Positions 14,828-25,627 of a stretch of DNA of 34,005 nucleotides are shown in pieces (position 1 is the stretch's first letter; each line of letters starts with the position of its first letter). The stretch is from Alistipes sp. GTDB taxonomy: Bacteria; Bacteroidota; Bacteroidia; Bacteroidales; Rikenellaceae. The DNA lies in the NCBI GenBank assembly GCA_017416915.1, contig JAFQAN010000021.1:1-34005 (forward strand), in the 5' to 3' direction. The notes under the pieces are model-generated. The model made no database searches. It was not told the DNA's origin and saw only the letters and a list, made by a program, of their open reading frames with translations. The translations under genes were made by a program, and so were the position numbers.

Positions 14828-15913
14828 CTACAACTCGCTCTCTTTGAGACGCTCGGCATTCTCGGCTACGATAAGCTGGTCGATGACATCCTGAATGTCG
14901 CCATCCATAAATGCTGCGAGGTTATAGATTGTATAGTTGATGCGGTGGTCGGTAATACGACCCTGCGGGTAGTTGTACGTGCGAATCTTCGCCGAGCGGT
15001 CGCCCGTCGATACCATCGTCTTACGCTTCGACGCAATCTCGTCGAGGTACTTCGAGTATTCGAGGTTGAACACACGTGTACGCAGCTCCTCGAACGCCTT
15101 GTCGAAGTTTTTGAGCTGCGACTTCTGGTCCTGACACTGCACGACGATACCCGTAGGTATGTGGGTAAGGCGTATTGCCGAGTAGGTGGTATTCACCGAC
15201 TGACCACCAGGACCCGATGCACAGAAGATGTCCTTGCGGATGTCGTTCATCGAAATCTCGACATCGAACTCCTCTGCCTCGGGAAGTACCGCTACCGAGG
15301 CTGCTGAGGTGTGAACGCGACCCTGTGTCTCGGTCTGAGGCACTCGCTGCACACGGTGAACGCCCGACTCGTACTTCAACGTGCCATAGACGCTCTGACC
15401 CGTAACCTTCATCACCACCTCTTTGAAGCCGCCAACAGCGCCCTCCGACGACGAGGTAATCTCGTAACGCCACCCCTTCGACTCGATATACTTGGTGTAC
15501 ATACGTAGCAGGTCGCCAGCGAAGATTGCCGCCTCGTCGCCACCCGTACCGCCACGTATCTCGACAATAGCGTTCTTGTCGTCCTGTGGATCTTTGGGGA
15601 TGAGCAGAAGTTTGATGTCCTCCTCCATCTTGACGATGGCAGGCTCTAATGTAGCTATCTCCTCGCGCGCTATCTCGCGGAACTCCTCATCCTTCTCGTT
15701 TGCCAATACATCCTTCGCCTCGGCGAGGTTGGCAAGAGCCGTGCGGAAGCGCTCCGATGTCTCGATGATAGGCTCCAACTCCTTGTACTCTTTGGTGAGT
15801 TGCACAAACTGCTTAACATCCGAAATGACCTCGGGGTCGGTCAGTTTTTGACCTATCTCCTCGTATTTGAGGCGAAGACCATCGAGGCGTATGAGAATTG
15901 AATTATCTGCCAT
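14828..15913 (-). CDS. prfA: Peptide chain release factor 1
   Basis: 361 aa, normal length. The stop-codon-reading tripeptide PxT is PQT at 192-194 in HRVQRVPQTETQGR, which marks RF1 (RF2 carries SPF). The catalytic GGQ lies at 236-238 in SGPGGQSVNTTYS. Domain order is the coiled-coil domain 1, the GGTGGDEA segment (121-128), the recognition domain, and the GGQ domain. It releases finished proteins at UAA/UAG. It marks the chromosomal edge of the phage-like cassette. Confidence 0.97.
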   Translation of the reverse strand: MADNSILIRLDGLRLKYEEIGQKLTDPEVISDVKQFVQLTKEYKELEPIIETSERFRTALANLAEAKDVLANEKDEEFREIAREEIATLEPAIVKMEEDIKLLLIPKDPQDDKNAIVEIRGGTGGDEAAIFAGDLLRMYTKYIESKGWRYEITSSSEGAVGGFKEVVMKVTGQSVYGTLKYESGVHRVQRVPQTETQGRVHTSAASVAVLPEAEEFDVEISMNDIRKDIFCASGPGGQSVNTTYSAIRLTHIPTGIVVQCQDQKSQLKNFDKAFEELRTRVFNLEYSKYLDEIASKRKTMVSTGDRSAKIRTYNYPQGRITDHRINYTIYNLAAFMDGDIQDVIDQLIVAENAERLKESEL

Positions 15914-16046: not shown

Positions 16047-16077
16047 TTGACAAACGCTTTTTGATGTCGTATATTTG
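16047..16077 (+). promoter_or_regulatory. Promoter of the phage-particle cassette
   Basis: TTGAC at 16047-16051 and TATATTTG at 16070-16077, separated by 18 bases: a good Bacteroidota housekeeping-type promoter. Transcription would start near 16084 and leave a leader of about 240 bases before the first gene. Confidence 0.7.
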
Positions 16078-16137
16078 TACCGTCAAACAAACCCAAACGA
16101 TAGCGCTTATCTTGGAGTTATCAACATTTGGGACCAA

Positions 16138-16191
16138 TCTCAATTAACAATTTATTGTATATATAATATATTGTATATCCGTTAATTGAGA
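16138..16191 (+). promoter_or_regulatory. Inverted repeat with internal direct repeats in the cassette leader
   Basis: Perfect 11-bp inverted repeat TCTCAATTAAC (16138-16148) / GTTAATTGAGA (16181-16191). The loop holds two copies of TATTGTATAT (16153-16162 and 16169-16178). This could be a regulator site or an RNA attenuator; which one cannot be told from sequence. Confidence 0.6.
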
Positions 16192-16234
16192 AATATTGTG
16201 AACAATCATTGACCTACTATTAACAAAACTATCT

Positions 16235-16276
16235 ACACCTCGTTCGGCATTTGGCGACTGCAGCGCCAAGAGGTGT
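16235..16276 (+). promoter_or_regulatory. GC-rich leader hairpin upstream of the first cassette gene
   Basis: Outer stem ACACCTC (16235-16241) / GAGGTGT (16270-16276). Inner stem TTGGCG (16251-16256) / CGCCAA (16264-16269) with a 7-base loop. It is 46 bases upstream of the start codon. There is no clean T-tract, so it is a possible structured leader or weak attenuator. Confidence 0.55.
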
Positions 16277-16322
16277 TGTTAGACTTTTGAACGCTGATTT
16301 TTTAACATTAAACTATTGAACT

Positions 16323-17294
16323 ATGAAGTTTGTAACGATACCCCAAAATGGTGCGTCGTGGAACGAGGAGCTTATCTACGAATTTCTTTGTAGCGACGCT
16401 GCGCCGAGAGATGTTCGTTTCGAGATAATCAATGACGACCGCTCGGAGCTTATCGGCGAATTGGTGTTGCGTGGCGTTACGGGTGGCAGCTTCAATATCG
16501 CGCCGTATGTGCGTCGCTACCTCCTCCCGAAGCTCGCCCAGCCACCACAACAGGCAACGCTTATACCCAGCCATGCGGCGATAAACGTGGTAGTGCGCTC
16601 GGGTGATGTGCTGTCGCCGCGACGACTCCTCTTTCGCGCCCCGTTCGACTACTCGTCGGTTGGCGTGATGACAAAGTTCACTATGCCGCGCCGTGTGGCA
16701 CTCGGAGGCACAATTCTACTGACGGTATTTGCTATGCGTCGTGCGCAAGTGGAGCTATATGGTGTCGATGAGGCGATGCAGAGGTTTTCGACCTTTACGT
16801 CGATAACTGCGGGTCGCCCGATGGATATGTTTCTGAGGGTGGATAGCCGCTTCGAGGGCTTTCGACGCCTTGTAATGCGCATAACGACGGATGATAACCT
16901 TGTCGAGGAGCTTGTGTATGAGCTATTGCCGCCGTTGAGCGGTGGCTGCGAGGTGGTGTGGCACAACGCCTCGGGAGGTTACGAGGTGAGTACTATGCCC
17001 TTGGTGCGCCGCCTGAGTGATGTGGTAAAGGTGCGCTCTATGATGCTTGCCGAGGGTAGCGACAACCGCCTTGTCGAGGCCTACTCTACGTTGCGCCTTA
17101 GCTCCGCAATGGAGCATCCCGACGAGGTGCAACGTCTGGCAGAGATTATCCGCTCTCCTTATGTGTATATGGTTGAGAATGATGCTCTTAGTGTAGTAGA
17201 ACTTGTTGAGCGGCGTATCGACTACGATAGGCACGGCAGCTTGAAGCAGCTATCAATCGACATTCGCCGAGCGTTGAAGGGAGGTGGTCTATGA
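16323..17294 (+). CDS. Putative phage tail/baseplate-associated protein (323 aa)
   Basis: I cannot name a family with confidence. The protein begins with a beta-rich segment (FVTIPQNGASW, then VRFEIINDD), has no signal peptide or membrane helix, and continues with mixed beta strands such as GGTILLTVFAM and RLVMRITTDDN. It overlaps the next gene by four bases (ATGA), implying coupled translation with the larger tail-like protein, and it opens a transcription unit that otherwise encodes virion proteins. A distal-tail or baseplate role is therefore the best guess. GC content and codon use look like the flanking chromosome. Confidence 0.5.
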   Translation: MKFVTIPQNGASWNEELIYEFLCSDAAPRDVRFEIINDDRSELIGELVLRGVTGGSFNIAPYVRRYLLPKLAQPPQQATLIPSHAAINVVVRSGDVLSPRRLLFRAPFDYSSVGVMTKFTMPRRVALGGTILLTVFAMRRAQVELYGVDEAMQRFSTFTSITAGRPMDMFLRVDSRFEGFRRLVMRITTDDNLVEELVYELLPPLSGGCEVVWHNASGGYEVSTMPLVRRLSDVVKVRSMMLAEGSDNRLVEAYSTLRLSSAMEHPDEVQRLAEIIRSPYVYMVENDALSVVELVERRIDYDRHGSLKQLSIDIRRALKGGGL

Positions 17295-19612
17295 TGCGCC
17301 TATTAATTGACGATATAGAGTGCTGCCTATTGGAGCAACCCAAGTTGCCGCGCTATGATGCTGCACGTCTTCGCAACGTTGAGGCGTGGCGTGAGGGCTA
17401 CGACATAGAGGTCGTGGTGGCACATACACCCCAAAGCGACGCGCTATTTGGCGATACGGGCGAGTTGTACCGCACCACGGAGTTCAATGCCTCATACCAC
17501 ACGGCTCGCTTGGAGGCGGATGGAGTTACGCTCTTTGAGGGTATGGCGACGCTCTTGGGCGTAAGGCGCGATGAGGCGTTGGTGGGCTACCGTCTGCTAC
17601 TGCGTAGCGGTGGCGAGGAGTGGGCGAAGCTGGCGGCACGTACGAAGATTGGCGACTGCGGCATCGAGTACAGCGCGACGATGGATATGCCGACCATCGA
17701 GCGGTCGTGGGTGGGGGACGAGAAGGTGAGGTTTCTGCCCTTGGTGCGCGACAGCTACCCCGAGCCTGTCGATACCTCGCCCTACGCCGCGCACCGCCCC
17801 CTGGCTCCGAACGACTACTACCCCTTTATCTCGGTGAGAGCAATCATCGGGGAGTTGCTTATGAAGAGCGGTTACACGCTGCACAGCAGCTTCCTGAACT
17901 CTCGGTTCTTTGAAAAACTGCACGTTAGCGGAGCATATCGCACAATACGCAACGACAGCGCCTACTCTGCGATGGGCTTCAAGGCGTACCGCACAACATC
18001 GCTCACGGCGACAGCCGACCCTACGGGGCGTGTGAGCGTGTGGAGTCCCGTGGGGGCGTCTAACGTCGGCTGCATCGTCGATACGGTTAGCCCCAACGCC
18101 GTGGATGAGAACGGCGTACAGTTCGGCGATGCCTACGCCTCGGGTGGCTGTTTTTCGTTCGAGGAGGGCTATCCCGTGTTTCGCCCCAAGCGTGAGGTTA
18201 CGGCGGCCTTTGACTACCACCTGCGCTTTACCACCGACTACCGCATAGTGTCGAGCAGGGAGTTGCGAGGCTTCAATCGCCTGCGTATAGGTCCTACAAC
18301 GGTGGTGGATATATGCCTGACCAATACCCACCGCGACTGCCGCAAGCAGGTAACCCCTGGTATGTCGTACAGCATAATGCTCTTTGGCGACTTCTCGGCG
18401 GAGGATACCTACTTCATCCCAGGCTTTGGGACCTTTCGAGAGCAGTCGGTGCGTATGACCGCCGCTTCGGACTTCTCGGGCGAGGCAGTGCTGCTCTATA
18501 TGCCTGCTGGTAGCACCGCGTATCGCCCCTACACTGGCGATTGGGCGCTCTACGAGGGCTTTGTGTCGCCCACGAGCAGTCGCACCATCGAGCTTGACAT
18601 GCGCTCGGCATTTATGCACTATACGCCCACCTCGCCCGAGGAGTTCAACCACATCTACTTCGAGGGTGCGGAGGTAGGGCAGAGCCTGACACTCCACGCA
18701 GGGTGTAGCGTAAAGCCCGTATTCGGCAGCTCGGTAGGCGTGGGCGACAGCTTTACCTTTAAGGATATAGCGCAGAACGACTACTCGGTGGCGGAGCTGT
18801 TAGCGGCGTTGCAGCAGATGTTCAACCTCCGCATCTACTCCGATAAGCTCTCGCGCCGACTCTACATCGAGCCTTACGATGCGTTTATTGGCGGCGAGGA
18901 GGACCTGCGCAGCTATCAGCAGGGTAAAGAGGTGCTTCTTGACGAGGCCGTTACGGGGTGCTTCGAGCGGACGGTACTCGGCTACCAGGCGGGTGATGGA
19001 GTGCTTAGCCGTATGACCGACGATGACGAGATTTTGGGCGACTGGACCTTCACGGTCGAGGGCTACGCCGCCAAGCAGGGGACAAGGCGCATTACAAACC
19101 CGCTGTTTTCGCCTACGGCAAGCGTGTGTGATGTTATCGACATAGCCCCCTCGGCACAGCTACTCTCGGTGGGCGACCGTGATACAGTGGTCGAGGAGAC
19201 GAATATCGCACCGCGCATAGTCCTCTACGAGGGTCTTGTGCCGCTACCCGACGCAGAGCGGTGGGACTCGGCAAGCTCGACGGAGAGCTATCCGTTAGCC
19301 TACTTTTTCAACGAGCAAAAGAGCGACAGCCTCGCCTTTGAGCCGCGAGCGCAAAGCGAAGGACTGCACTGTTACCACCTCACCGAGCTACGCGAAGATG
19401 CCGAACGCCAACTGCTTAGATGCAATCTGCGTCTTACGCCGTTGGAGTATGCCGAGCTCTTCGATGCTGGCGACGCTCTACCTCGGCTATGCGCCCGCTT
19501 CCGTCTCGAAGTGGATGGCAATAGCTCGCTTTTCAGGCTGCATAGCATCGAGCGTTACGATGCCGACAGCCATATCGCCGACTGTGTATTTCGTCGTACG
19601 CTCAGCGATTAA
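17291..19612 (+). CDS. Large phage tail/baseplate-like structural protein (773 aa)
   Basis: The largest cassette protein, with no signal peptide. A segment near residues 490-545 (VAELLAALQQMFNLRIYSDKL, then RLYIEPYDAF) resembles a motif common in large tail proteins of Bacteroidota phages. The rest is beta-rich with many Ser/Thr/Tyr loops. The N-terminal 100 residues (LLIDDIECCLLEQPKLPRY, then EVVVAHTP) look like a domain that docks on a ring. I infer a tail-tip or baseplate hub. A long antisense open frame across 17597-18697 is a codon-bias shadow. It is translationally coupled to the preceding gene; the protease gene follows after 34 bases. Confidence 0.6.
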   Translation: MMRLLIDDIECCLLEQPKLPRYDAARLRNVEAWREGYDIEVVVAHTPQSDALFGDTGELYRTTEFNASYHTARLEADGVTLFEGMATLLGVRRDEALVGYRLLLRSGGEEWAKLAARTKIGDCGIEYSATMDMPTIERSWVGDEKVRFLPLVRDSYPEPVDTSPYAAHRPLAPNDYYPFISVRAIIGELLMKSGYTLHSSFLNSRFFEKLHVSGAYRTIRNDSAYSAMGFKAYRTTSLTATADPTGRVSVWSPVGASNVGCIVDTVSPNAVDENGVQFGDAYASGGCFSFEEGYPVFRPKREVTAAFDYHLRFTTDYRIVSSRELRGFNRLRIGPTTVVDICLTNTHRDCRKQVTPGMSYSIMLFGDFSAEDTYFIPGFGTFREQSVRMTAASDFSGEAVLLYMPAGSTAYRPYTGDWALYEGFVSPTSSRTIELDMRSAFMHYTPTSPEEFNHIYFEGAEVGQSLTLHAGCSVKPVFGSSVGVGDSFTFKDIAQNDYSVAELLAALQQMFNLRIYSDKLSRRLYIEPYDAFIGGEEDLRSYQQGKEVLLDEAVTGCFERTVLGYQAGDGVLSRMTDDDEILGDWTFTVEGYAAKQGTRRITNPLFSPTASVCDVIDIAPSAQLLSVGDRDTVVEETNIAPRIVLYEGLVPLPDAERWDSASSTESYPLAYFFNEQKSDSLAFEPRAQSEGLHCYHLTELREDAERQLLRCNLRLTPLEYAELFDAGDALPRLCARFRLEVDGNSSLFRLHSIERYDADSHIADCVFRRTLSD

Positions 19613-19646
19613 AGTCTATTTTTAAGTAACCATTAACCATATCTCA

Positions 19647-20846
19647 ATGAAAAAATCATCTAAGCGGGTGGCAACAGCCACTCTGCCACGCCCGTCGCGT
19701 CGATATGAACGCCTCATCGGAGAACTACTTTCAAATAGATTAATCGACTGGACGACGTGCCGTAAATATCTGATGCACAACCGAGTGATGTCGTTGTGTG
19801 GTGGTCGTAGGGGTCGTTGCCTCGCTATGGTGATTGTTGCCAAGGAGTTCTGTTGCTCGTACGAGACAGTGCGCAAGGCGATATACGAGATAGAAAAAGT
19901 AAACCTTAAAACAATGAATCAAACAATCAAAATTAAGAACGAAGCGGAGCAGACCGTCATCGACATTGAGGGTACGATAGGTCTCTCGGAGCAGTGGCAG
20001 TTCGACAACCCCGAGAGCCGTGTGGCGACCTACGAACGCTTCCGCGAGTGTGTCGCCCAGATTGCCGACATCAGCAATGCCAACATCTTGGTAAACATCC
20101 GTTCGACGGGTGGAGATGTGAACGATGCGATACTCATCTACGAGGCACTACGCTCGACAGGTGCGCATATTACCACCTGCTGCTATGGCTACACCGCCTC
20201 GGCTGCGACAATCGTTGCACAGGCGGCATCCGAAAATCGCCGCCTCATAGCTCCCTCATCGTTGTATCTCATCCACAAGTCGTTATGTTCTACTGAGGGC
20301 AATGCCGAGGAGCTGCAAAACGAGGTCGAGATGTTGCGCCAGACCGATAGTCGCCTTGCCGAGATATACGCAACGCGCTCGGGACGCAGTATCGAGGATA
20401 TTGCCGCGCTGATGGCAGAAAATGGGGGTCGCGGACGCTGGCTATCGCCCGCGGAGGCTATCGCCGAGGGCTTGGTCGATGGCGTCGTTGAGGATAGAGC
20501 GTGTGAGAGCGACACTAAGAGCGACGGCTCGGTAGGTGTACGCGCTATGAAGGGCATCAAGTCGCTGATGCGAGCCATAGGCATCGACATTGACCAGGAG
20601 CCTAAGGCTGAGGATGACATCAACTACGTCCCTCGTCAGAAGCCCGCCATTACGGACTCCACCAAGCCGCTCCCCACAGCCGAGCGTGAGCTTGCTGCGC
20701 AGTCGTCGATACTCTTCGACGAGCGACAGCGAGCCGTGAAGCCTACATCGGTAAAGGAGGTCGAAGACCCCTCGCCCGTGGACGTGTCGCACACGCCTCG
20801 CAGCATAGCCTATGAGCGCGATGCACAAGTATTTCGCAACCGATAG
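19647..20846 (+). CDS. ClpP-like phage head-maturation protease with N-terminal helix-turn-helix (399 aa)
   Basis: Residues about 100-285 form a ClpP/SppA-like serine protease: STGGDVNDA (oxyanion region), GYTASAAT with nucleophile Ser185, YLIHKS with His210, and WLSPAEAIAEGLVDG. In ClpP the catalytic Asp precedes the FLS of DRFLS; here that position appears to be Gly263 (GRWLS). The C-terminal 115 residues are disordered-looking and may act as a scaffold. Residues 1-89 are basic and contain a helix-turn-helix-like stretch (VIVAKEFCCSYETVRKAIYEIE), odd for this family. Met90 (base 19914) has a typical A-rich leader, so a second start giving the bare protease is plausible. The major capsid gene follows. 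Confidence 0.75.
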   Translation: MKKSSKRVATATLPRPSRRYERLIGELLSNRLIDWTTCRKYLMHNRVMSLCGGRRGRCLAMVIVAKEFCCSYETVRKAIYEIEKVNLKTMNQTIKIKNEAEQTVIDIEGTIGLSEQWQFDNPESRVATYERFRECVAQIADISNANILVNIRSTGGDVNDAILIYEALRSTGAHITTCCYGYTASAATIVAQAASENRRLIAPSSLYLIHKSLCSTEGNAEELQNEVEMLRQTDSRLAEIYATRSGRSIEDIAALMAENGGRGRWLSPAEAIAEGLVDGVVEDRACESDTKSDGSVGVRAMKGIKSLMRAIGIDIDQEPKAEDDINYVPRQKPAITDSTKPLPTAERELAAQSSILFDERQRAVKPTSVKEVEDPSPVDVSHTPRSIAYERDAQVFRNR

Positions 20847-20933
20847 GCAACCATCAAAACGCTTAATGCAACCAACTAAACGCTTAACTTTTAACCAACA
20901 CATTTTTATTAACCAATCTAAAACCTTACAATT

Positions 20934-21896
20934 ATGGGACAGATCGAAAACATCAAAATCTATTCGGGTAACGACCTTGAAACAATCTTTTTCCGCCCTA
21001 TGCTCGTCGGCCAGAATGCCGAGGAGCTCGGCATCCGCGTTCTCTACAATATGCCCGTGCCGACAACCATCCAGCTGTGGAGTCCTCAGACCGACATCTT
21101 GCAGCCCTACTCGACAGGTTGGTCGGGTGGCGATGGTGCGCAGCGCGTGCAGAAGACCATCTCTCTGACCAAGGTCAAGGCGGAGGTAGGCTTCTCGGCG
21201 TCGGACTATTTCAGTCAGGTGTATGAGCTTATCACCAACCGCGCAGATGTAAACCTCGACGACCTCACAGGCTCGGAGTTGGAGCAGGCAGAGACCGAGA
21301 TGTTCCGTGCTGCGGTGGCTGAGAACTTGCGCCTGATGATGTGGGCGGGCGATACAGATGCCAACAGCTACAACCTCTTTGATGGCATCTTGAAGAAGGT
21401 GCATACTTATATGAATGTTGGTGCCATCGACTTTTCTGTGGAGAGGGTGAGCAAGGATAACGTCATCTCGCTGCTTACACGAATCTGGGAGGAGGCATCG
21501 CCCCGCCTAAAAAGCCTCAAAAACGATGGTCAGCTCGCCTACTTCGTATCGACGGACGTGTGCGATGCCTACGAGCAGTATCTCGACTCGTTGGGTGCCG
21601 ATGGCGCATATACCGAACTTACCACGGGTCGTCGCGAGCTATCGTTCCACGGCATCAAGCTCATCGACATCAACATCTCGCACATTATGCCGTTGCACCT
21701 TCTGGATGGTCCGAGCTTCTGCTTCCTTACCGACCGCCGCAACCTCGTCTTGGCGGTAAATACTGCCGATTATCCTGGCTCGGAGGTGCGTATGTGGTAC
21801 AATCCCGACGAGATACAGAACCGTCAGCGCGCAATATTTATGGCGGGCTGCGAGCTTCTTGACGAGGAGTTGGTGGTACGCGCCGACTTTAACTAA
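20934..21896 (+). CDS. Putative major capsid protein, HK97-like (320 aa)
   Basis: The size, the position directly after a prohead protease and before a portal gene, and the sequence style (LWSPQTDILQPYSTGW, then TKVKAEVGFSASDYFSQ, then a spine-helix-like EQAETEMFRAAVAENLRLMMWAGD, and a C-terminal beta part ending MAGCELLDEELVVRADF) fit an HK97-fold coat protein. It would form the shell of the particle. There is no long N-terminal delta domain, so scaffolding may come from the protease tail. The leader is A/T-rich. The assignment is strong by context, moderate by sequence. Confidence 0.7.
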   Translation: MGQIENIKIYSGNDLETIFFRPMLVGQNAEELGIRVLYNMPVPTTIQLWSPQTDILQPYSTGWSGGDGAQRVQKTISLTKVKAEVGFSASDYFSQVYELITNRADVNLDDLTGSELEQAETEMFRAAVAENLRLMMWAGDTDANSYNLFDGILKKVHTYMNVGAIDFSVERVSKDNVISLLTRIWEEASPRLKSLKNDGQLAYFVSTDVCDAYEQYLDSLGADGAYTELTTGRRELSFHGIKLIDINISHIMPLHLLDGPSFCFLTDRRNLVLAVNTADYPGSEVRMWYNPDEIQNRQRAIFMAGCELLDEELVVRADFN

Positions 21897-21918
21897 CCCT
21901 TAAAAACGTGCATAAGTT

Positions 21919-23142
21919 ATGTCTGAAAAGAAGATAGCAACACGCATAACTACCACGTCAAACCGCACCGAGCCTCTCTTTGGCTCGGTGGCGGGTGGTA
22001 GCTGCTCGAACGATAAGATTTGGCGTTGGGGCGACGACAATATGCTGCCCTTCGCACTCTCGCTTATGGCACGTCGCTCGGTGGCACACCGTCGCATCAT
22101 CAACGATAAGGCGGACTACATCGCTGGCAAGGGTTTTAGTTACGACCAGAGTGAGCCGCTGCTGCGCCATATCGTAGAGCGCGCCAATGGCGATGGCGAC
22201 ACGCTACGCTCCATAATAGCGCGTCTTGCCTACGATGAAGCACTCTTCGGCAACGCCTTCTTGGAGGTGGTAACCGACCATCAGCACTCGTTCCTCTCGC
22301 TCTATCACCACGACGCCTCGACGTGCCGTGTGGCGCGAGACTCACAGCACGTCATCCTACACCACGACTGGCGAGCGTTCAACTCGGCGCAGGCGACGAG
22401 TCTGCCGCTATATCCTCTCTTCGAGGAGCAGGAGGATGGCACACTGCGCACCATCATCCACTACAAGGACTATGAGCCGCTATTTAGCCACTATGGCGTA
22501 GCCCCCTATATTGCGGGTATGGATGTGGCGGCAATAGCTTATAAGACAGATAGATGGAACATTTCGCGCATCGACAACTCGTTCCAGATGTCGGGTGTGA
22601 TGATGCTCGATAGCGTGGTCGATAGCGAGGAGGAGGCAGACCGTATGGTGCGCCTCGCCGAGCAGAAGTTTGCGGGCAACCCTGGTCAGGTGCTATTTGT
22701 GCTGCGCGACCACGCCGATGGCGACAACTCGCGCTTTATCCCTATCGACGCCTCGGCGGATGGCGATTGGCACTCGCTGCATACGCAGGCGGAGTCCGAT
22801 TTGGTGATTGCCCACTCGTGGTTTCGCTCGCTCAGCGGCTTAGATTATGCTTCGGGCTTCTCGACCGAGCGTATTCTTAACGAGTATGAGGTGGCTCTCA
22901 ACACGGTAATTCTTGCCGAGCAGGAGCAACTTTTGGAGCCTATACGTAGCATCCTCAGCGACCTTTTCGCCATTGATGCCTCATCGCTCGACATCATCAA
23001 CCGCCCGCCAACACGCTCCAAACCACTCTATATGAGGGTGTGGGAGGCGCGCAAGGCGGATGGCTTGGAGTACGACGAGAATGACCCAGCGCAGCAACTC
23101 TACCTCGCCGAGATTGGCAAAAACACTAAAACAACGCCTTAA
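21919..23142 (+). CDS. Phage portal protein (407 aa)
   Basis: The N-terminal part carries IWRWGDDNMLPF, followed by a helical clip/stem region (ARRSVAHRRIINDKADYIAG) and RLAYDEALFGNAFLEVV, which are typical of portal proteins of Bacteroidota phages. The portal is the twelve-subunit ring at one capsid vertex through which DNA passes. A long C-terminal helix region (TERILNEYEVALNTVILAEQ, then EPIRSILSDL) matches the crown/stem. No terminase gene, the usual partner of a portal, is present in the window. It follows the capsid gene by 22 bases and precedes the connector by 2. Confidence 0.8.
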   Translation: MSEKKIATRITTTSNRTEPLFGSVAGGSCSNDKIWRWGDDNMLPFALSLMARRSVAHRRIINDKADYIAGKGFSYDQSEPLLRHIVERANGDGDTLRSIIARLAYDEALFGNAFLEVVTDHQHSFLSLYHHDASTCRVARDSQHVILHHDWRAFNSAQATSLPLYPLFEEQEDGTLRTIIHYKDYEPLFSHYGVAPYIAGMDVAAIAYKTDRWNISRIDNSFQMSGVMMLDSVVDSEEEADRMVRLAEQKFAGNPGQVLFVLRDHADGDNSRFIPIDASADGDWHSLHTQAESDLVIAHSWFRSLSGLDYASGFSTERILNEYEVALNTVILAEQEQLLEPIRSILSDLFAIDASSLDIINRPPTRSKPLYMRVWEARKADGLEYDENDPAQQLYLAEIGKNTKTTP

Positions 23143-23144
23143 CT

Positions 23145-23621
23145 ATGGAGACAATTATTACCCCTCAGCAGGTCATCGACCTCGCCTTCTCGCCAAACGA
23201 GCTACTCACGCCCTCGATTATCACCGTGGCAGATATTACCGAGGCGGAGCACTGCTACATACGTCCCATCCTCGGCGAGGAGCTGTGGCGTATGCTCGTC
23301 GATGGCGACTACCCAGAGCTTACCATCGAGTATGCAGGACCCGCCATCGCCGCGTGGACACGCTATTTGGTGCAGCCGCTCCTCGAACAGCGCTGCTCGG
23401 CGTGCCTCACGGACGACAACCGCTCGATATACGACTCTACCACAGCGGGAAACAACCGCCAACGAGGTGTTCAGCGCACCCTGCGCCGCAAAGCCTCGAT
23501 ACTCTCTAAACGCCTTACCGACTATCTCAACCGAAATACGGATATGTACCCCGAGTACGTACCTGCGAATAACCCACTAAACCGCTGTTCAATCAATGGA
23601 GATATTATTCAAATACGTTAG
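23145..23621 (+). CDS. Putative head-tail connector (DUF6712-like, 158 aa)
   Basis: Small helical protein with the pattern ITEAEHCYIRPILGEELWRMLV, then AAWTRYLVQPLLEQRC, and a C-terminal RTLRRKASILSKRLTDYL. This resembles the DUF6712 proteins found after portal genes in Bacteroidota prophages, which are thought to be adaptor/connector proteins. It ends in IQIR and overlaps the holin gene by 26 bases. Confidence 0.6.
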   Translation: METIITPQQVIDLAFSPNELLTPSIITVADITEAEHCYIRPILGEELWRMLVDGDYPELTIEYAGPAIAAWTRYLVQPLLEQRCSACLTDDNRSIYDSTTAGNNRQRGVQRTLRRKASILSKRLTDYLNRNTDMYPEYVPANNPLNRCSINGDIIQIR

Positions 23622-24021
23622 CGGCTTACTTAGCGCCCTCGCTGCGCTGCTATGTCCTGTCGCCCCGCTTGTGGCTGCTGCCACAGCCTTTATCCTTATC
23701 GACTTTGTTACGGGCGTTGCCGCCTCCTCGGTGGTGGCACGTCGCAACGGCACAAAGTGGTGGTTTGAGAGCCGCAAGGCGTGGCGTACGCTCCTAAAAC
23801 TCGGCTTCGTCGCCGTGGCGATAGTGATGACGTGGGTCATAGACAGCCACCTGCTTGGCTTTATGCATCTGCACCTCGCCAACCTCTTTACGGGTTTTGT
23901 ATGTGGTGTGGAGCTGTGGTCGTTCTTGGAGAATGCCGCCTCGATAAGCCGTGCGCCGATATTTGTGTGGCTCGGCCGCTGGGTGAAACGTCGTGTAGAG
24001 AGGGAGGTGGGCAATGAGTAG
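23596..24021 (+). CDS. Phage holin (141 aa)
   Basis: The protein has three hydrophobic helices (about 8-40, 66-85 and 88-108) and a basic tail (KRRVEREVGNE). The segment ATAFILIDFVTGVAAS, followed by RNGTKWWFESRKAWRTLLKLG, is typical of the phage holin 4 type. It would form inner-membrane lesions that let the following lysin reach the cell wall. The gene overlaps its neighbours on both sides (26 and 8 bases). Confidence 0.8.
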   Translation: MEILFKYVSGLLSALAALLCPVAPLVAAATAFILIDFVTGVAASSVVARRNGTKWWFESRKAWRTLLKLGFVAVAIVMTWVIDSHLLGFMHLHLANLFTGFVCGVELWSFLENAASISRAPIFVWLGRWVKRRVEREVGNE

Positions 24022-24475
24022 AGGTCTTCGCAACTGCAACCCTGGCAACATCCGCCACTCGGCGACGCGCTACCGTGGCGAGGTGGTGCCGAGTAGAGAT
24101 AAGGCGTTCAAGGAGTTCGAGAGTATGGCGTGGGGCTATCGTGCGATGTTTATGCTCCTGGATAGCTATCGCCGTCGCCATCGCCTCGGCACTCTGCGTC
24201 AGATGTTATCGCGCTATGCTCCACCAACGGAGAACTTCACCGATGGCTACATACGCTTCGTCTCGCGCACGGCGGGTGTCGATGCTGATAAGACGCTCGA
24301 TACACGCTCGCCTCGCGATATGGTGCCTATTGTCGCCGCGATGTCGCAAATCGAAAATGGCGTGAAGGCTGTTATGGCGGATGTCCACGCGGGCTGGAAT
24401 ATCTTTGCCGAGGAGCATAACCTCAGCCGTGTGGCTCTGCTCGATACGGATACACCCTCCGATATGGCTCGATAG
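24014..24475 (+). CDS. Phage lysin / virion structural hydrolase-like protein (153 aa)
   Basis: The start GLRNCNPGNIRHSATRY, followed by SRDKAFKEFESMAWGYRAMFMLL and later YAPPTENFTDGYI, is the hallmark of the small lysozyme-like proteins in Bacteroidota prophages annotated as structural protein or lysin. No signal peptide, as expected for a holin-dependent enzyme. The catalytic Glu cannot be fixed with confidence. It is the last gene of the cassette; a strong terminator follows after 35 bases. Confidence 0.75.
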   Translation: MSRGLRNCNPGNIRHSATRYRGEVVPSRDKAFKEFESMAWGYRAMFMLLDSYRRRHRLGTLRQMLSRYAPPTENFTDGYIRFVSRTAGVDADKTLDTRSPRDMVPIVAAMSQIENGVKAVMADVHAGWNIFAEEHNLSRVALLDTDTPSDMAR

Positions 24476-24510
24476 CGAGTCGGTAAACATAAGTCGGAGT
24501 AGCAAAATTT

Positions 24511-24540
24511 GCGGGATAAAGATATTTATCCCGCTTTTTT
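24511..24540 (+). terminator. Terminator of the phage-particle cassette
   Basis: Perfect 10-bp stem GCGGGATAAA / TTTATCCCGC with a four-base loop (GATA), followed by six T. It closes the transcription unit begun at 16047-16077. Confidence 0.92.
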
Positions 24541-24601: not shown

Positions 24602-25627
24602 ATGAATAGAAAGGTACTCGTTACGGGTGGCGCAGGATATATTGGCTCGCATACCACCGTCGAACTTATAAATGCAGGTTACGAGGTTATCATCGTCGAT
24701 AACTTCTCGAATAGCGACCCCTCGTCGTTGGAGGGCGTAGAGCGCATCACGGGCGTTAAGCCCACTTTTATCGAGGTGGACTGCTGCGACAAGGAGGCGT
24801 TGCGCAAGGTGTTTGAGGCTCACGACTTTATGTCTGTCATCCACTTCGCCGCGTATAAGGCTGTGGGTGAGTCTGTCGAGAAGCCGCTGATGTACTACCG
24901 CAACAATATGCTCTCGCTTATCAACGTCCTCGACCTTATGAGCGAGTACAACCGCCCCAATATCGTCTTCTCCTCTTCGGCGACGGTATATGGCGATGCC
25001 GACGTGTTGCCCGTTACGGAGCTTACGCCGCGTAAGCCCGCTACCTCGGCATACGGCAACACCAAGCAGATGGCTGAGGATATATTGCGCGATGCCACCG
25101 CCGCTTCGGCGACGCTGCACGGCATAGCCCTCCGCTACTTCAACCCCATAGGGGCGCATCCCTCGGCACTCATTGGCGAGCTGCCACGTGGCGTACCCAA
25201 CAACCTTGTACCCTATATCACGCAGACGGCAGCGGGTGTTCGCGAGTGTCTCAGCATCTTTGGCGACGACTACGCCACGCCCGACGGCTCGTGTCAGCGC
25301 GACTTTATCGACATCGTCGATTTGGCGCGCGCTCATGTGGTGGCAATCGGACGTATGGTCGAGGGTCGTAGCAAGTCGCAGTACGAGGTCTTCAACGTGG
25401 GTACGGGACGCCCTGTGTCGGTGTTCGAGTTGGTAAATGGCTTTGAGAAGGCTAACAACCTTAAACTCAACTATAAGATAGCTGCACGTCGTTCGGGCGA
25501 TGTGCCTGCCGTGTGGGCAGATACCACACTTGCCAACGAGGAGCTCGGCTGGAAGGCGGAGCGCGAGTTGAACGACACGCTACGTGCCGCGTGGATGTGG
25601 GAGAAGCACGTTCGCGGCATCGAGTAG
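24602..25627 (+). CDS. galE: UDP-glucose 4-epimerase
   Basis: 341 aa, normal length. NAD-binding motif GGAGYIG at 9-15. The active site has the Ser cluster in FSSSATVYG (124-126) and Tyr151/Lys155 in SAYGNTK. Typical segments VIHFAAYKAVGES, LRYFNPIGAHP and DGSCQRDFIDIVDLA are present. It interconverts UDP-glucose and UDP-galactose for surface glycan synthesis and galactose use. It marks the right chromosomal edge of the phage-like cassette. Confidence 0.96.
   Translation: MNRKVLVTGGAGYIGSHTTVELINAGYEVIIVDNFSNSDPSSLEGVERITGVKPTFIEVDCCDKEALRKVFEAHDFMSVIHFAAYKAVGESVEKPLMYYRNNMLSLINVLDLMSEYNRPNIVFSSSATVYGDADVLPVTELTPRKPATSAYGNTKQMAEDILRDATAASATLHGIALRYFNPIGAHPSALIGELPRGVPNNLVPYITQTAAGVRECLSIFGDDYATPDGSCQRDFIDIVDLARAHVVAIGRMVEGRSKSQYEVFNVGTGRPVSVFELVNGFEKANNLKLNYKIAARRSGDVPAVWADTTLANEELGWKAERELNDTLRAAWMWEKHVRGIE

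Follow-up and report, generated by a model that had tools for sequence, protein, structure and literature searches.

Why would a bacterium keep, between two of its housekeeping genes, an unbroken set of genes for a phage particle? The question is raised by a stretch of 34,005 nucleotides from an Alistipes sp. of the family Rikenellaceae (GenBank assembly GCA_017416915.1, contig JAFQAN010000021.1), hereafter the window, which is an entire contig of a genome of about 2 Mb. In it, eight intact rightward open reading frames (ORFs; g1 to g8) form a single operon at 16323-24475, with prfA and galE on either side. The initial annotation, made from the sequence of the window, named the products as two tail/baseplate-like proteins, a ClpP-like prohead protease, a capsid-like protein, a portal, a connector, a holin and a lysin, and found the eight genes unbroken, as we do. 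We propose, with a probability of roughly 70%, that the operon encodes the structural and lysis proteins of a gene transfer agent (GTA) that is inherited vertically, is perhaps under SOS control and goes back to a tailed phage domesticated at an early stage by the Rikenellaceae. Particles loaded with pieces of the cells' own DNA may well be its product; the locus is neither a remnant nor a packaging-free device.

In PMC9662315, GTAs are defined by six features: proteins derived from tailed phages, mostly random host DNA as cargo, full endogenization that often extends over several loci, a head too small to package all of the GTA's own genes, vertical inheritance with co-diversification, and DNA delivery. 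Three of these, namely tailed-phage-derived proteins, full endogenization and vertical co-diversification, were found here from genes alone, and the system appears GTA-like in every respect that sequence can test, making it a candidate GTA. That the cargo is random host DNA, that it is delivered and that the two loci described below are expressed together, we infer.

Conservation, inheritance and selection

Among the best 80 of 251 relatives, for which the source genomes were named, the close relatives of the cassette come from Alistipes and other Rikenellaceae, many of them metagenome-assembled genomes from the ruminant gut, together with the isolate A. montrealensis kh20, in which the cassette is present (L212); genome G049, which has this contig in common with it, encodes TerL on its contig C7. 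The capsid gene is present in 173 of 180 genus genomes and in 68 of the 70 better ones; it gives a single match in 168 of the 173, with no internal stop among the matches listed in the genus search. The portal gene extends to 107 of 111 family genomes in 14 of 16 genera, while a sample of the order yielded matches in 9 of 294 genomes, four of these in Rikenellaceae. We examined 98 loci, found via portal or capsid and hence biased towards carriers of those genes; four pairs are identical or have identical stretches, and 67 had enough flanking sequence. All eight genes stand in order, at a coverage of at least 80%, in 61 of these 67 fully covered loci (two of the 67, L014 and L178, are one contig). 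The order across the family is [c9]-g1-g2-[c14]-g3-g4-[c8]-g5-g6, to which g7-g8 are added in Alistipes and some other genera. As for the prfA-cassette-galE arrangement, whose conservation the initial annotation had put up for testing, the prfA site is kept in the window's clade; many other Alistipes have a different common neighbourhood.

Trees of the capsid, of the large terminase subunit (TerL, encoded at a second locus) and of the host marker rpoB were compared in 23 genomes with all markers. Shared splits amount to 13/20 for rpoB and capsid, 10/20 for rpoB and TerL and 11/20 for TerL and capsid, against a random maximum of 3, and the three trees show no conflict at support of at least 0.95 in both. 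In 20-24 genomes, with the rpoB frame checked by motifs, distances correlate with those of rpoB at 0.74-0.86 for seven cassette genes (g1 left out), 0.82 for TerL and 0.83 for the repressor beside it, values that were each reached in 0 of 2000 permutations. The splits and correlations are those of vertical inheritance and co-diversification with the host. The ratio of nonsynonymous to synonymous substitution rates (dN/dS), taken over pairs with dS of 0.05-1.2 that are not independent of one another, has medians from 0.20 (portal) to 0.51 (g1) across the eight genes. The cassette genes are under purifying selection, looser than that on housekeeping genes. Maintenance by selection, which had been deduced from the intact frames, and the GTA-like option offered alongside it are both supported: the genes are conserved across genus and family, the trees agree, and the median ratios lie below 1, so that the neutral dN/dS that was to betray a plain prophage remnant is not seen in any of the medians.

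A terminase and a repressor at a second locus

The absence of packaging genes noted in the initial annotation is true of the operon but false for the genome. The search for a terminase elsewhere found TerL at G000:C5:173074-174432, on a contig different from that of the cassette, and a packaging-free device was rejected on this ground. As a query, this TerL matched 107 of 111 family genomes, which represent 14 of 16 genera; the two genera without a portal are the same two that have no TerL. With the TerL of a related prophage as query, relatives were found in 169 of 180 genus genomes, mostly single and at 55-61% identity. The columns that we take to be Walker A, Walker B and the nuclease acidic residues are conserved in 31 of 31 sequences, prophage included. 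A search with the family PF03237 finds TerL in 69 of 71 genomes, but it also gives matches in 6 of 14 control genomes, so that it is not specific.

In the six genomes compared in which both lie on one contig (G051, G052, G053, G164, G169, G188), TerL lies 0.11-2.6 Mb from the capsid gene, and joint packaging of both loci is therefore unlikely. Since about 4-10 kb separate TerL from this cluster in other genera (L318-L321, G377), the wide split in Alistipes looks derived. Cassette and TerL/repressor thus stand apart in recurrent chromosomal flanks, with no integrase among the eight genes: full endogenization over several loci. TerL also adjoins a reduced cluster, TerL-g3-g4-g5-g6, in L313-L316 (two genera, g191 and g194), with no g1 or g2 matches nearby and stops in some portals; it may be a yet more reduced version of the system or else a different element.

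Beside TerL, a divergent repressor of about 225 residues with a helix-turn-helix (HTH) and an S24 domain was present in all 18 of the first-fetched TerL loci, and a clustered ORF of about 95 residues lies between the two in 16 of the 18. The repressor profile matches in 30 of 30 non-prophage TerL loci (phrog_4, 1.8e-33). The repressor (t0) matches PF01381 (1.7e-11) and PF00717 (1.9e-12), and its Ala-Gly, Ser and Lys columns are conserved in 29 of 29 sequences, as would befit a CI/LexA-like self-cleaving repressor. The conserved cleavage site, together with the family, suggests SOS induction of the system. RcGTA, the GTA of Rhodobacter capsulatus, is controlled by host regulators.

The second locus bears on the proposal that the capsid was exapted for non-DNA cargo as a nanocompartment, or that the operon is a regulated lysis device. 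An encapsulin-type nanocompartment is a capsid without portal and terminase. Here portal and TerL are conserved, and neither device needs a portal, a connector, a hub or a TerL whose ATPase and nuclease motifs are conserved, all of which are kept. The accessory genes c8 and c9, absent in half of the genus, would leave a particle that is perhaps nearly tailless there, which is what the proposal has in its favour; we consider it very improbable, and this option of the initial annotation is disfavoured.

The eight gene products

All eight genes lie on the forward strand, with gaps or overlaps between successive ORFs of -4, 34, 87, 22, 2, -26 and -8 bases. The first, g1 (16323-17294), encodes a multi-immunoglobulin (Ig)-like phage structural protein of 323 residues, modelled at a predicted local distance difference test score (pLDDT) of 93.3. 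Its best matches in the viral library are uncultured tailed phages (E about 1e-16 to 1e-17), followed by Flavobacterium phage 23T and Nonlabens and Cellulophaga phages (E about 1e-12); fold searches of the PDB returned generic Ig-like matches only. The 773-residue product of g2 (17291-19612) is predicted to adopt the fold of a tail/baseplate hub (Mu gp44/gp27/VgrG-like), into which the model places a C1q/TNF-like jelly roll at about residues 222-480. Neither g1 nor g2 had a family match in profile searches.

The 399-residue ORF g3 (19647-20846) contains a ClpP-like prohead protease (PF00574, 6.9e-30; phrog_94, 3.1e-39), whose presumably catalytic Ser and His columns are conserved in 31 of 31 sequences. 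The protease of the initial annotation is right as to function but incomplete: the ORF joins in frame an HTH-like segment, c14 (match from 19701), to the protease (from about 19914), and in many relatives the two are separate ORFs. The major capsid protein is probably the 320-residue product of g4 (20934-21896; phrog_1623, 7.5e-08). As neither capsid nor TerL had a sequence match in the PDB, we can only infer an HK97 fold for g4. The portal is g5 (21919-23142, 407 residues; PF04860, 7.6e-11; phrog_11226, 2.5e-20), and g6 (23145-23621, 158 residues), a DUF6712 protein, is a putative head-tail connector (PF20459, 7.4e-06). A holin of 141 residues (g7, 23596-24021; PF05105, 7.3e-12) and an endolysin of 153 residues (g8, 24014-24475; phrog_873, 2.6e-40) complete the operon, the latter with the motif N-x-N-P-G-N-I-R, whose fixed positions are conserved in 28 of 28 sequences. 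The profile matches, and the predicted folds of g1 and g2, agree with the products first named. Portal, protease, endolysin and TerL, with the similarity in hub fold, mark the particle proteins as derived from tailed phages.

A related prophage and the tail

Where did the cassette come from? The second match in genome G006, at about 20-57 kb of contig G006:C31 (L034, L031, L035), is a larger related prophage with a small terminase subunit (TerS), a TerL (phrog_38, 1.5e-99), a diversity-generating retroelement (DGR)-like reverse transcriptase and, between g2 and the protease, a gene resembling a tape measure. It shares with the cassette the order g1-g2-[tape measure]-protease-capsid-[c8]-portal-g6, and differs from it in that TerS and TerL adjoin the structural genes and in its tape measure and reverse transcriptase. 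Marine phages from IMG/VR (L055, L060, L082) have the protease-capsid-portal order of the cassette after a segment matching the prophage tape measure. These related phages appear to show the source of the cassette, and the prophage is by all appearances akin to its ancestor. Six further IMG/VR contigs (L038-L043), with portals 62-72% identical, the cassette order and no TerL match, may be chromosomal fragments filed as viruses. In G080 there is a TerL 95% identical to that of the prophage.

This prophage and the G080 TerL would suit a phage satellite, or a still-mobile element spreading with a helper. Such an element should be bounded and hold integrase or replication genes, yet family profile searches found neither among the eight genes of the operon, which lies directly between prfA and galE. 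Of the seven repeat families found, none is an att-like direct repeat bounding it, so the att repeats that the initial annotation would have taken as a sign of a plain prophage were not seen. The cassette is also mostly present in one copy, in two recurrent chromosomal neighbourhoods; its trees follow rpoB, and the genome has its own TerL. A satellite with a helper's terminase is disfavoured, and of all the explanations considered here we regard it as the least probable.

The initial annotation had noted that the operon has no tape measure and had proposed to look for one in the genome. A tape measure of the prophage kind is not genus-wide: it matched 4 of 71 genomes, of which one match is the prophage and the other three are weak and partial, and a genus-wide gene of this family was therefore rejected. 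A relocation of c8 and c9 within the window's genome was likewise rejected, for want of a match, and presence and absence of c8 needs three changes on the tree. Two candidates for TerS, c14 and t2, were also discarded; they have no family support, and the prophage has a small ORF in the place of c14 plus a separate TerS. The particle's tail may be very short, or absent in some clades, and the g2 hub argues for some kind of delivery tip.

In the main rival to a GTA, the cassette would make a PBSX-like or bacteriocin-like particle from a domesticated phage, filled with host DNA or with no DNA, which uses its tail to kill related strains and is kept for competition, not for gene transfer. The inserted jelly roll of the hub could bind receptors, g1 varies most among the eight genes (21-30% identity to the window's copy, and the highest median dN/dS), the portal resembles TIGR01540 (portal_PBSX) with a score below the family cut-off, and holin and lysin are present. 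A tail-only bacteriocin, however, needs none of the capsid, protease, portal, connector and motif-intact TerL that are kept here, no tape measure was found, and half of the genus is missing c8 and c9. PBSX-type behaviour and that of a GTA are indistinguishable by sequence; we nevertheless judge a killing particle unlikely.

Weighing the proposed gene transfer agent

Several observations weigh against a GTA. No TerS was recognised for the cassette or its TerL locus, no tail tube was identified, and the search for a tape measure of the prophage kind, not genus-wide, leaves room for a diverged or much shorter one. The cluster genes c8 and c9, both of unassigned role, occur in 37 (c8) and 35 (c9) of 71 Alistipes genomes, with no match in the other 34 and 36, the window's included. 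With these parts unfound or patchy, a working tail is not proven. Two genomes have TerL but no portal (G158, G191), two a portal but no TerL (G178, G186) and two neither (G482, G485); the first four are possibly recent losses of the system. Internal stops are reported in the portals of G178, G488, G495, G496 and G505 and in the TerL of G489; in G480, G481 and G050 the TerL gene is broken or fragmented. In six of the 67 loci a gene is short or was not found. The dN/dS of the cassette genes is far looser than that of prfA (0.021) or galE (0.104), and g1 pairs reach 1.12. Joint control of the two loci is hinted at, though not proven, by promoter resemblance: in 8 of 18 TerL loci, a matrix trained on cassette promoters scores highest next to the start of the repressor gene. 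Of the five loci from the window's clade, all but that of G129 are among these eight. The scores there are 16 and lower, far below the 60 and up of the training sites.

Loose dN/dS, scattered losses and stops, and missing tail genes are also what a slowly decaying prophage remnant, shared through descent, would leave. Such a remnant should not have been kept over 14 genera with dN/dS below 1, conserved motifs and 61 of 67 loci complete, nor should it have retained TerL and repressor together at another locus. This reading is already largely refuted, and we give it little credence.

If the system is a GTA, DNA damage would lead to RecA-assisted cleavage of the CI/LexA-like repressor, whose loss would allow expression of TerL and of the capsid operon. 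Proheads would assemble on the portal, mature through the ClpP-like protease and be filled by TerL with host DNA, perhaps with little sequence choice because no TerS is recognised; for random packaging, this absence is only suggestive. The g2 hub and the Ig-like g1 protein would form the delivery tip, and holin and endolysin would lyse the producer cell, so that particles bring DNA to kin. We lean, somewhat less firmly than for the GTA itself, towards a fuller account: Rikenellaceae would have a family-wide GTA, the first to be described from Bacteroidota. A phage particle and its lysogeny switch, the self-cleaving repressor beside TerL, would both have been captured, split apart and kept for the host, and in the window's clade the particle would have shrunk to a near-tailless DNA carrier.

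Relation to known systems

According to PMC9662315, GTAs are known in few lineages, namely alphaproteobacteria, a deltaproteobacterium, a spirochete and a methanogen; the string 'bacteroid' occurs 0 times in that article. Compared by described features, the closest parallel would be BhGTA/VSH-1 of Brachyspira hyodysenteriae (Brachygtaviriformidae; PMC9662315), because its single conserved terL also lies outside the structural/lysis cluster; like the Alistipes system, it co-diversifies with its host genus. It belongs to a different phylum, and in Alistipes, unlike in BhGTA as described there, a CI/S24 repressor adjoins terL. RcGTA (Rhodogtaviriformidae) is, by its description in the same text, likewise tailed-phage-derived, endogenized and vertically inherited, but its TerL is g2 of the RcGTA genome (PMC9662315). 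A recent candidate from another gut bacterium, FpGTA I of Faecalibacterium, resembles the cassette in its head genes of about 10 kb and differs in its phylum and in a possible TerS and a TerL inside the cluster (PMC12946183); Alistipes is not mentioned in that paper. Searches of the open-access literature, preprints excluded, brought up no GTA described for Alistipes, Rikenellaceae or other Bacteroidota.

If our proposal is true, a conserved, mostly single-copy and vertically inherited GTA over 14 genera of a common gut family adds a phylum to those known and gives gut Bacteroidales a dedicated route by which genes can flow between them. With loci that run from clustered to split, the family allows one to trace how a phage turns into an organ of its host, and the system is open to testing in cultured Alistipes. 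In PMC4568480, Alistipes is among the frequent genus matches of unassembled reads from a sorted stool virus fraction, and in PMC9723715 a pig virome contains one Alistipes-like contig, thought by its authors to be free bacterial DNA; neither shows packaging of Alistipes DNA.

Operon boundaries and leader

The single promoter and the strong terminator first annotated were both found. The forward-strand promoter at 16047-16077 reads TTGACAA-N16-TATATTTG, of which the second element is presumably the -7 motif TAnnTTTG of Bacteroidota, and it recurs with a fixed 16-base spacer in 30 of 30 prfA-side leaders (29 distinct; L155 and L292 are one contig). The intrinsic terminator (24511-24540, forward strand) has a 10-pair stem at 24511-24534 followed by six T. 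On the flanks lie prfA (14828-15913, reverse strand) and galE (24602-25627, forward strand), names that we assign by recognition plus their conservation, and the GC content of the operon is similar to that of the flanks, in agreement with the initial annotation.

Within the 5' leader (16078-16322, forward strand), an inverted repeat, TCTCAATTAAC...GTTAATTGAGA at 16138-16191, may be an operator. The leader also has a TTATNMACA site at 16118, which we take to be DnaA-box-like. In a search of 14 whole genomes, a pattern of paired DnaA boxes was found at 12 places in 8 genomes, against 5 for a reversed control pattern, and G011, G017 and G023 alone have a match within the leader of the cassette; replication-linked control of the cassette is a guess. 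Single TTATNMACA sites occur in 29 of the 30 prfA-side leaders and are about 26 times denser there (58 in 14.1 kb) than in L148-L227 overall, where the density is 0.156 per kb.

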